This document shows, in pieces, positions 1,194 to 4,585 of a stretch of DNA of 10,354 nucleotides. Origin of the DNA: Desulfuromonas sp. SDB (GTDB taxonomy: Bacteria; SDB-A). Made by a program: the position numbers and the translations under genes. The stretch's first letter is position 1; each line of letters begins with the position of its first letter. The DNA lies in the NCBI GenBank assembly GCA_001412365.1, contig LKUE01000128.1, positions 1 to 10,354 of the forward strand, read 5' to 3'. The notes under the pieces are model-generated. The model saw only the letters and a program-made list of their open reading frames with translations, did not search any database and had not been told where the DNA came from.

Positions 1194-2149
1194 AATCGTG
1201 TAAAATACCTCCCAAGTTCATGTAATTTTCCTGCGCTTAATAATATAATTAGTTTAATTCGGGCTTTGGGCCCGGATAAATCTTCTGCAAAATAACAACC
1301 CATTTCCGCCAAGGTTTTACCTCCCCCCGAATAACCGTAAACTGGAGCAACTCTTCCCTGGAGTACCCGGGTAGTTATAACTACTGGAATTTTTGACACT
1401 GCTTGTTCAATTCCTTCCAGCATACCGGGTGGTACATTTCCCCTCCCCAACGCCTCTATCACCAGACCATCCACCGGCTGTTCCAATAATCCCAAGATAA
1501 TTCTGGAATCCGAACCAGCAGTGGCTTTAACCAGCTCCACTCGGGCATTGACATCTTCAATTTCCAAGGGTGACTGAGGTGATGGTTGATGGTAAAACAT
1601 AACTTTCAAATCCACTGTCCCCCAACACCCGTAATTTGGTGCAGTAAAACCAGTCACACTGGTAGTGGAAATTTTCATTACCTCCCGGGGTGAAAAAATT
1701 TCATTATTCATGACCACCATTACTCCCCTCCCCGCCGCTTGTTCGCTTAGCACTACCTGAATTGAATCGTAAAGATTCCGGGGTCCATCCAATCCCAGGT
1801 CAGGAGGAGCTCTCATCGCCGCAGTCATGACTACAGGACAGTCCGGTTTTAAAATCAATGACAGGAAGTAGGCAGTTTCTTCCAATGTATCGGTGCCATG
1901 AGTTATTACCAAACCATCGCAGATGCTGGATAAACTTTTAATTTTATTGGCTAATTCCAGCATTTTCCGGGGAGTCATCCAGGGGCTGGGGATATTGGAG
2001 AATTCACAAACTTCAAATTCCACCAATTGGGATTCAAAGGGAATCATCTCCAGTAATTCTTCACCCCTTATGGTGGGAACTATTCCCCGCTCCCCTTTTT
2101 TCATCATACTAATGGTTCCACCGGTGGAAACCAATATAATTTTTTTCAT
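1190..2149 (-). CDS. ansA: L-asparaginase family enzyme (cytoplasmic)
   Basis: This 319-residue protein belongs to the asparaginase/glutaminase family, which hydrolyses L-asparagine to aspartate and ammonia. The first active-site motif, STGGTI, is at 8-13 with nucleophile Thr12. The second, THGTDTLEET, is at 83-92 with Thr86 and Asp87, and Lys159 in EVMKIS fits the remaining catalytic lysine. GRGNVPP, typical of the C-terminal domain, is present near residue 246. There is no signal peptide, so it should be cytoplasmic. The flexible loop after TGGTI lacks the Tyr found in E. coli AnsB; VPTIRGEELL follows instead, as in many bacterial asparaginase-like proteins. Its start overlaps the stop of the response-regulator gene (ATGA, 2149-2146) and its stop overlaps the next start. 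The family is clear, but substrate preference is not provable by eye. The link with a wall hydrolase and a signalling protein is unexplained. Confidence 0.9.
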   Translation of the reverse strand: MKKIILVSTGGTISMMKKGERGIVPTIRGEELLEMIPFESQLVEFEVCEFSNIPSPWMTPRKMLELANKIKSLSSICDGLVITHGTDTLEETAYFLSLILKPDCPVVMTAAMRAPPDLGLDGPRNLYDSIQVVLSEQAAGRGVMVVMNNEIFSPREVMKISTTSVTGFTAPNYGCWGTVDLKVMFYHQPSPQSPLEIEDVNARVELVKATAGSDSRIILGLLEQPVDGLVIEALGRGNVPPGMLEGIEQAVSKIPVVITTRVLQGRVAPVYGYSGGGKTLAEMGCYFAEDLSGPKARIKLIILLSAGKLHELGRYFTRL

Positions 2150-3474
2150 CTTTTCATTTCTACCTGTTCAACAAACTGGGATTCAGTATAATCAAAAATA
2201 TACTTCAAAACTTCCTCTATGTTGACCATGTAGTATTCAGGGACCGCAAACCATTTTGGTTTTTCTAATTTTAAAATTCCTGCTTTTTCCCCTACCGGGG
2301 ATAACACTACCACCGGCAGTTTATCCTGAATTGGTTTCAGCCTCTTAGTTAATTCATCCACATCATCCTTGGTATCCTCCAATCGTGGATCTATCATTAA
2401 AATAAGGGCATTTGCCTGTTCCAAAAATACCTGCCACAGCAAATTAAATTTTTTCTTTCCGCTGCTGACAACAATTTCCAGGGATACTTCCGGGGATATA
2501 TCAATTCGGGCAAAACTGGAAATGGCACTGTGTTTCTTGGTAATTCCCACTTCTTTGCCCAAATAATCAACAAATCCATCAATAATGAAATTTAAAATAT
2601 TCTTTCTCTCCTCTGACCACATATCAATCACCAATATCTCAAATATCTTCTTTTTCTCTTTGGTTACTTTCTGGGATATGCTTTCGATTCTCCTCTCCGC
2701 ATCTTCAGCCATTCCTACCTTTAGCAGAGCATTAGTCAGTTCATCTACCGCCACGTTATCCCTGGACTCCTCATCCATCAGCCTTACCCCTTCCAGCAAC
2801 AGATGGGATAAAGTTTCCCTGATGGTTACTTCTTCCGGTTGGGCATTGGGAGCATAGGTGAACAAACCTTCTTCCCAGCTGATAATATGATAAATTGCAT
2901 TACTTCCCTTTAACCGTCCTGACTCCGCATGAACAATTGTTCCCGAATCAAAATAAACCACCGCGGTCTTGAGAACACTTTTCAACTTTATACAGCCGGT
3001 TTTTCCTCCCATCTCCATAAACTGAAGTAAATCAACCACCGGAAAACTTTCAATCTTTCCACCAAATCCTTTAATATTGCTGAGAAAATATTCAGGGTAG
3101 TAATTCTGAGTAATAAAATTTTCAACAATTAACAGGATTTCAGCTTTGTTTATCGGCTTGTTCAATATTATGTTTGCTCCCGATCTCCACGCTTCAATTC
3201 TTGATGAAGAGTCAACATCTACTGCTAACAGAATTACCGGCAATCCTTTAGTTTGGGAATTTTCCCGCAGTTGTTTACAAATAGCATATCCACTCATCCC
3301 CGGCATTGCTACATCAATAATCACTAGATGAAATTCTTCCTTAAATAATGTATCCACCGCATCATTGCCGTTATCTTCCCTAACCACATCATATCCCTGT
3401 TCCAGAAGAATATCGCTTAGATAAGTAATCACAGTAGGATCATCATCAGCGATCATTATTTTAAACTTTTCCAT
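2146..3474 (-). CDS. Response regulator fused to DUF4388 (PATAN) and a degenerate GTPase-like domain
   Basis: This is a 442-residue cytoplasmic signalling protein in three parts. Residues 1-125 form a receiver domain: acidic cluster Asp10-12, phospho-acceptor Asp54 in IIDVAMPGMSG and Lys106 in NKPI. The usual switch Thr/Ser is Ala84. Residues about 135-230 match DUF4388/PATAN (DLLQFMEMGGKTG, YFDSGTIVHAESG, AIYHIISWEEGLFTY). After a charged helical link, residues about 277-430 resemble small GTPases of the MglA/COG2229 type (FNLLWQVFLEQANALILMID), but the P-loop position reads DMWSEERKN, the GTPGQE position reads VSSGKKK, and no NKxD is seen. GTP binding is therefore unlikely. There is no DNA-binding domain and no kinase gene in the window, so output is probably through protein contacts. 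The upstream Shine-Dalgarno is weak (AGGA, about 11 bases before ATG). Domain order is a strong call; the pseudo-GTPase reading is inference from pattern similarity. Confidence 0.85.
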   Translation of the reverse strand: MEKFKIMIADDDPTVITYLSDILLEQGYDVVREDNGNDAVDTLFKEEFHLVIIDVAMPGMSGYAICKQLRENSQTKGLPVILLAVDVDSSSRIEAWRSGANIILNKPINKAEILLIVENFITQNYYPEYFLSNIKGFGGKIESFPVVDLLQFMEMGGKTGCIKLKSVLKTAVVYFDSGTIVHAESGRLKGSNAIYHIISWEEGLFTYAPNAQPEEVTIRETLSHLLLEGVRLMDEESRDNVAVDELTNALLKVGMAEDAERRIESISQKVTKEKKKIFEILVIDMWSEERKNILNFIIDGFVDYLGKEVGITKKHSAISSFARIDISPEVSLEIVVSSGKKKFNLLWQVFLEQANALILMIDPRLEDTKDDVDELTKRLKPIQDKLPVVVLSPVGEKAGILKLEKPKWFAVPEYYMVNIEEVLKYIFDYTESQFVEQVEMKR

Positions 3475-3538: not shown

Positions 3539-4420
3539 TTATGTAATTTTTCTTCTTAAATCAACAAAATCATAGAGTAATTTATTAACAGCTACAGAAG
3601 TATCCGCAATATGCATGGTTATATTGTGCTTTTTTGCCTGTTCACTTATATGTTCTTCTAATTCAGAAATTTTTTGATTTAAATATTTTCTGCTCTGCTC
3701 TGCTGATATTGAAATTTTTAATCCACTTTCAGGATCTGTCAAGGCAAGTTTCCCGGTTAATGAAAAATTTCTTTCCGCAGGATCTTTAATCCAAAAAACC
3801 ACTACCTCATTTCCCTTGTATCTTAATCCTTTTAAAGGAACTATGAAATCATGGGGAGGCTTAATTAAATCTGAAATTAAAATAATCATACTCCTCTTAG
3901 TAATCCTTTCTCCAATTTGATAAAGAATATTTCCAATAGAAGTGCTGCCTTCTGTGCGGATATTGTTTAACCGAGAAAAAATTTGATTTTGATGAAGATT
4001 AGTGCTCTTCGGCTTTAAAAAATCAATTAATCTGTCACTAAACAAGATTAATCCCACTAAATCGCGCTGAGATATTAAAAGGTAAGTTAAGCAGGCAGTT
4101 AAAATTTTCGCATATTCAATTTTTTTTATTTTTCCGCTGGAGTAATTCATTGAACTGGAAACATCCAGGAGAATATAGCACTGCAGATTAGTCCTATCCT
4201 CAAATTCCTTAACTACAAATTTATCGGTTCGTCCATACACTTTCCAGTCAATAGTTTTAATTTCATCCTGGGGAAAATATGGACGATGTTGAGAAAACTC
4301 CACCGAAAAACCTTTATAAGGGCTTCGATGATATCCACTGAACAAACCCTCTACCACCACCCGGGATATGATATTTAAATTATTTAGCTTTATTAACTGT
4401 TCAGGATCAATTAATCTCAT
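3539..4420 (-). CDS. DUF58 family protein with vWA-like MIDAS fold
   Basis: Starting at ATG 4420 gives 293 residues. The N-terminal half carries the DUF58 signature: RVVVEGLFSGYHRSPYKGFS at 20-39 and IDWKVYGRTDKFVVKEFEDR at about 57-76. A von Willebrand factor A-like fold follows, with the metal-site motif Asp86-x-Ser-x-Ser90 (LLDVSSSM), GST at 158-160 and ISDL at 182-185. I prefer this start because family members begin just before LDPE. The reading frame extends to a TTG at 4483, but that TTG has no Shine-Dalgarno site, and the extension is not family-like. Family members are usually encoded beside a MoxR AAA+ ATPase; none is present here. It lies 64 bases upstream of the response-regulator operon on the same strand and diverges from the ABC exporter. 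Function is not established for the family beyond MoxR-linked complex assembly or chaperone-like proposals. Confidence 0.88.
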   Translation of the reverse strand: MRLIDPEQLIKLNNLNIISRVVVEGLFSGYHRSPYKGFSVEFSQHRPYFPQDEIKTIDWKVYGRTDKFVVKEFEDRTNLQCYILLDVSSSMNYSSGKIKKIEYAKILTACLTYLLISQRDLVGLILFSDRLIDFLKPKSTNLHQNQIFSRLNNIRTEGSTSIGNILYQIGERITKRSMIILISDLIKPPHDFIVPLKGLRYKGNEVVVFWIKDPAERNFSLTGKLALTDPESGLKISISAEQSRKYLNQKISELEEHISEQAKKHNITMHIADTSVAVNKLLYDFVDLRRKIT

Positions 4421-4585
4421 ATACAAATTATCAATCAGCTCATCATAATAATCAATAGAAATGGTGAAAATTTCAAAAATCAACAGGAGGTTAAGGTTTC
4501 ATTCAATACTTCTTTTAAAAAAAGATGAAGCAGTTATATTTTTGTGAATAAATGAAAAAAAGTTTTAAAAATTTCTTTTTGAATT

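Follow-up and report, generated by a model that had tools for sequence, protein, structure and literature searches.

Can a molecular switch of one class, run by GTP, yield to one of another class, run by a phosphorylated aspartate? The question is raised by a gene on the reverse strand of the window (the whole stretch of 10,354 nucleotides from Desulfuromonas sp. SDB that was analysed), at positions 2146 to 3474, whose 442 amino acid product was read in an initial annotation as a receiver, a DUF4388 (PATAN) domain and a dead GTPase in one chain. To our knowledge no pseudo-GTPase domain has been described in a bacterial response regulator, and none was found in the literature searched. A single-chain and probably nucleotide-free version, with a frozen and conserved switch surface, would offer a clean route to what that surface binds, as well as a handle on the question just asked.

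Results

The three-domain chain is borne out by Pfam, predicted structure and homology (this gene, its features and the neighbouring genes given below are all on the reverse strand). The receiver covers residues 6-117 (3124 to 3459; Pfam E 7e-25) and keeps the acidic pair Asp11/Asp12, the phospho-acceptor Asp54 and Lys106, and DUF4388 covers residues 139-236 (2767 to 3060; E 1.5e-20, with 73.9 bits against the PF14332 cut-off of 25). A helical linker (residues 237-273; 2656 to 2766), which the full-length model draws at low confidence as helices 235-252 and 259-273, leads to a Ras-like pseudo-GTPase domain at about residues 274-434 (2173 to 2655). In this C-terminal third Pfam gives sub-threshold matches only (Roc, E 0.002; Arf, 0.034; Ras, 0.097); the best 25 NCBIfam matches of the whole protein are receiver-containing families only, and the C-terminal domain alone has no NCBIfam match.

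A Thr/Ser switch residue is common in receivers, though not strictly defining. The Ala noted earlier at this position (residue 84; 3223 to 3225) is real in the window protein, yet the family does not share it: all three aligned orthologs have Thr there (LLTATT), so that the change to Ala84 belongs to the window lineage. In the window organism the switch of the receiver may be weakened or altered by it.

Structural models were built from the alignment of the four orthologs, with no active GTPase included. Residues 270-442 modelled alone reach a mean pLDDT of 83.3 and a pTM of 0.84, with the Ras-like order of elements b1-a1-b2-b3-a2-b4-a3-b5-(a4 stub)-b6-a5. This order was already seen for residues 275-430 of the full-length model, where DUF4388 is poorly modelled because the alignment is shallow, and with which the fold search returned receivers only (PDB receivers at Z about 22). 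For the domain alone, the top PDB matches by Foldseek are Rab3C, MglA, RhoD and Arf (E about 1e-6 to MglA and Rab), whilst VIA-align ranks first the MglA-MglB complexes (transition-state and GppNHp, Z 13.0 and 12.9, with 152-154 residues of the MglB-bound MglA aligned at an rmsd of about 3.0), then more MglA, then Arf/Arl structures. The predicted fold is therefore Ras/MglA-like, as had been supposed from the pattern of the sequence.

From switch I through b4 the domain aligns without gaps to a TPGQ-type GTPase (TVAMDFGRITLDGENVLHIFGTPGQFRFNYMWSILGKDALGIIVVVD versus SAISSFARIDISPEVSLEIVVSSGKKKFNLLWQVFLEQANALILMID), and alignment places degenerate strings where the nucleotide motifs should be. 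At G1, DMWSEERK (residues 284-291; 2602 to 2625; D, W, R and K invariant in the orthologs) replaces the P-loop GxxxxGKT, which is GPFAAGKT in the aligned active relative; at G2, switch I is SAISSFA (316-322; 2509 to 2529), invariant in the four orthologs; at G3, VSSGKKKF (336-343; 2446 to 2469) replaces GTPGQxRF, TPGQ having become SSGK with Lys in place of the catalytic Gln and only the Gly (Gly339) retained; and at G4, PVGE (393-396; 2287 to 2298) replaces NKxD. The G5 loop is covered by an invariant PKWFAVPEY (406-414; 2233 to 2259). The spacing from G4 to G5 is about 8-9 residues shorter than in active relatives, and a bulky Trp stands both at G1 (Trp286) and at G5 (Trp408). The hydrophobic pattern quoted earlier as kept (LLWQVFLEQANALILMID) is, as corrected here, the switch II helix plus strand b4. 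The claimed loss of G1, the G3 Gln and G4 is confirmed, and it extends to 4/4 orthologs; an intact P-loop elsewhere would have spoken against it, and no Walker A motif was found anywhere in the 442 amino acids, where the sole [NT]KxD string is TKDD at 368, outside the G4 column. From these replacements we infer that the Ras-like domain would have lost its nucleotide binding.

The nearest relatives of the domain seem, from sequence comparison, to be stand-alone TPGQ-type (COG2229-like) GTPases rather than the genome's own MglA; both names are used here as labels, for relatives defined by direct homology and not by the COG2229 profile. A search of 60 relatives matched three genomes of the same family at 49% identity and one stand-alone GTPase of 178 amino acids (E 1e-5), and the ortholog profile, run over 386 genomes, found further stand-alone GTPases (E 1e-6 to 1e-3). 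Pairwise alignment to five TPGQ-type GTPases gave z of 7.0-14.5 over shuffles, the best pair scoring 103 where shuffles averaged 30 (z 14.5, a score reached by 0/1000 shuffles), compared to z of 1.2-1.7, which is chance level, for two MglA. Similarly, hhalign gave 95.3% (E 2e-8) for the TPGQ-type and 0.4% or less for MglA. Of the MglA/COG2229 kinship originally proposed, the COG2229-like part thus stands, whereas the resident MglA is ruled out as the nearest source by both comparisons. The exact place of the pseudo-GTPases in the tree is unsure, since their branch is very long (6.6 changes per column).

Genes for PATAN proteins are known to lie next to genes for small GTPases. Among 32 distinct loci of TPGQ-type GTPases, a DUF4388 gene lies immediately upstream in 28 (partners called by Pfam on representatives and by sequence similarity for the rest), and in one locus (L087, 1589-2968, reverse strand) the two form an intact fusion of 460 amino acids, with a Roadblock gene overlapping its 3′ end. 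In the three remaining loci, L015, L018 and L020, a different gene precedes the GTPase; in L015 and L018 it is weakly receiver-like, and no DUF4388 was found upstream of GTPases of the L015/L018 type. In five loci of TVPGQ-type MglA a short gene precedes instead; two of these short genes were aligned, and both resemble Roadblock. Given the frequency of the pair and the existence of a natural fusion, the window protein looks like a pair of DUF4388 and TPGQ GTPase genes that was fused, joined to a receiver and rendered catalytically dead. Wuichet and Sogaard-Andersen (PMC4316618) likewise reported PATAN genes in the vicinity of MglB and of group 1 and group 5 MglA.

The host lineage is a little-known one, related to candidate division WOR-3; a contig scan found one named relative, a WOR-3 MAG. 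All four genomes of the phylum examined (two genera) have the gene, with the order of its neighbours preserved, and beyond these four orthologs the sampled genomes yielded no further chain of receiver, DUF4388 and GTPase. Within one genus the identity is 90-94% for the GTPase-like domain, 82-90% for DUF4388 and 70-78% for the receiver; between the window protein and the other genus it is 52%, 72-73% and 40-44%, respectively. The pseudo-GTPase domain is under purifying selection, with a dN/dS of about 0.02 for the G002-G003 pair only, synonymous sites being saturated in the other pairs. The open frame, this ratio and the conserved gene order rule out a decaying pseudogene. Invariant residues make up 25/31 of the G1-G5 columns, as opposed to 55/130 elsewhere (four orthologs; Fisher p 1e-4; p 5e-9 with a looser column set, chosen from the data), so that the former nucleotide/switch face is strongly constrained in spite of the loss of its motifs.

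The regulator's stop codon and the ATG start of an asparaginase-family gene (1190 to 2149) overlap at 2146-2149, and a DUF58/VWA gene (3539 to 4483) lies just upstream; both were identified by Pfam and are conserved neighbours, the asparaginase in the same order in orthologous loci. A LysM/NlpC-P60 gene stands next to the asparaginase, with DUF58 on the opposite side of the regulator, wherever the locus stretch covers them. An asparaginase neighbour kept in four genomes is odd company for a regulator of the polarity type. No motility gene was found beside the regulator at the locus, where the conserved neighbours are asparaginase, LysM/NlpC-P60 and DUF58, and this calls for caution on a motility-type role.

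Elsewhere in the four genomes, each has one MglA (group-1-like) with one adjacent Roadblock gene, between five and nine matches to DUF4388 and several ATPases of the T2SSE/PilT family; an active TPGQ-type GTPase was found in none of them.

Discussion

The loss of the motifs in what is, within one genus, the best-conserved domain of the protein suggests that the switching once done by GTP has passed to a phosphate on the receiver. We consider it probable that receiver phosphorylation would play this part for a GTPase-shaped docking domain. In this mechanism a pair made of a DUF4388 protein and a TPGQ-type small GTPase would have been fused, a receiver added, and the P-loop, Gln and NKxD then lost, productive binding of GTP presumably going with them. 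Phosphorylation of Asp54 would alter the grip of receiver, PATAN and linker on the GTPase-shaped domain. The fixed switch/pocket face of this domain, which would be made up of SSGKxKFNLLWQVFLEQANAL, SAISSFA and PKWFAVPEY, would then bind a former partner of the GTPase, for example a Roadblock-type protein, the PATAN domain of the same chain or, through PATAN, an ATPase of type IV pili. In Synechocystis, response regulators of the PATAN type have PilB and PilC as binding partners (PMC12288463). The initial annotation had proposed a docking module controlled by phosphorylation, and the docking part of it gains support, since conservation within the domain peaks at the loops of the former active site. 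That the Ras-like domain moved from nucleotide to two-component control, its P-loop switch being dead and the receiver setting the on and off states of the same docking surface, we put forward more tentatively, as a real possibility.

Some GTPase-like proteins are known to bind nucleotide without the standard motifs. It could then be that the domain still binds guanine nucleotide, or some other ligand, in a remodelled pocket, as a divergent GTPase or a ligand sensor. Conservation centred on the loops of the former nucleotide site is what a retained pocket would need, and the invariant Gly339 and the basic residues in the G1 and G3 positions (Arg290/Lys291 and Lys340) could, together with the aromatic PKWFAVPEY loop, conceivably line one, though we think these candidates unlikely to do so. 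All the G1 glycines and the Lys-Thr pair are gone, however, as is G4, and the two tryptophans and the shortened G4-G5 stretch argue in the same direction, making such a pocket unlikely. The conservation of the loops bears also on the reading that treats the domain as a structural leftover, or as a dimerisation module, with no partner of its own: PATAN would then be the true output, and the GTPase fold would do no more than stabilise the protein. PATAN is a known output in cyanobacterial regulators of type IV pili (PMC12288463), and pseudoenzymes often turn into scaffolds (PMC10211241); a mere leftover, however, would hardly be the most conserved domain within one genus, above PATAN, with its invariance centred in loops and not spread over the core, and we regard this as the least probable of the readings.

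It had also been suggested that the domain competes with, or copies, an active MglA-like GTPase. Were the domain to rival the resident MglA, or act as its decoy, at the Roadblock (MglB-like) protein, it would find both encoded side by side in each of the four genomes, and the best structural matches are indeed MglA in complex with MglB. The similarity to MglA is nevertheless at chance level, none of the four genomes yielded the active subfamily from which the domain comes, and in most loci that subfamily pairs with DUF4388 and not with MglB; the suggestion is weakened by this, and we doubt it. Phosphorylation in place of GTP, acting on a docking face, thus remains the reading we prefer.

Compared to known systems, the protein stands closest to the TPGQ-type GTPases found after DUF4388 genes (L010, L012-L014, L016, L017, L055-L069 and L075-L087), with which it shares the fold, the ungapped core from switch I to b4 and the association with DUF4388, fused naturally in L087. 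Theirs, however, are without a receiver, encoded by a separate gene, and keep GxxxxGKT and TPGQ, whereas the window protein lost all nucleotide motifs. Modules of group 1 MglA and Roadblock/MglB offer the closest solved fold and likewise have ties with response regulators (RomR) and PATAN genes, but by pairwise alignment the window domain shows no detectable similarity to the resident MglA; it is fused to the regulator instead of acting in trans, and has lost its nucleotide motifs. PATAN response regulators such as PixG of Synechocystis share receiver and PATAN, and the description of PixG consulted mentions no GTPase-like domain. Eukaryotic pseudoGTPases (CENP-M, the pG domains of p190RhoGAP, Rnd; PMC5593906, PMC10211241) are also Ras-like, non-cycling modules of protein interaction; the window domain, by contrast, is bacterial, fixed to a phospho-receiver and of independent lineage.

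Partial loss of motifs occurs among P-loop-intact relatives too: the GTPases of L010, L014 and L016 have NQFE or NHFK at G4, and not NKxD. In these same loci the DUF4388-GTPase pairs lie between phosphofructokinase-like and Bmp-type lipoprotein genes (both by eye). Other receiver-DUF4388 proteins of the four genomes (L025, L036, L038, L042; L039, L041, L043, L044) carry two further kinds of C-terminal domain, on which Pfam is silent; a Roadblock-like look of one of them, seen by eye, was discarded at an hhalign probability of only 1.8%. Finally, the upstream partners of TPGQ-type GTPases, of about 335 amino acids, in L015 (353-1357) and L018 (479-1501), and their relatives L094-L098, with a weak, degenerate receiver and no detectable DUF4388, share a conserved C-terminus ending in KKSFLKKIIDKIRGL.
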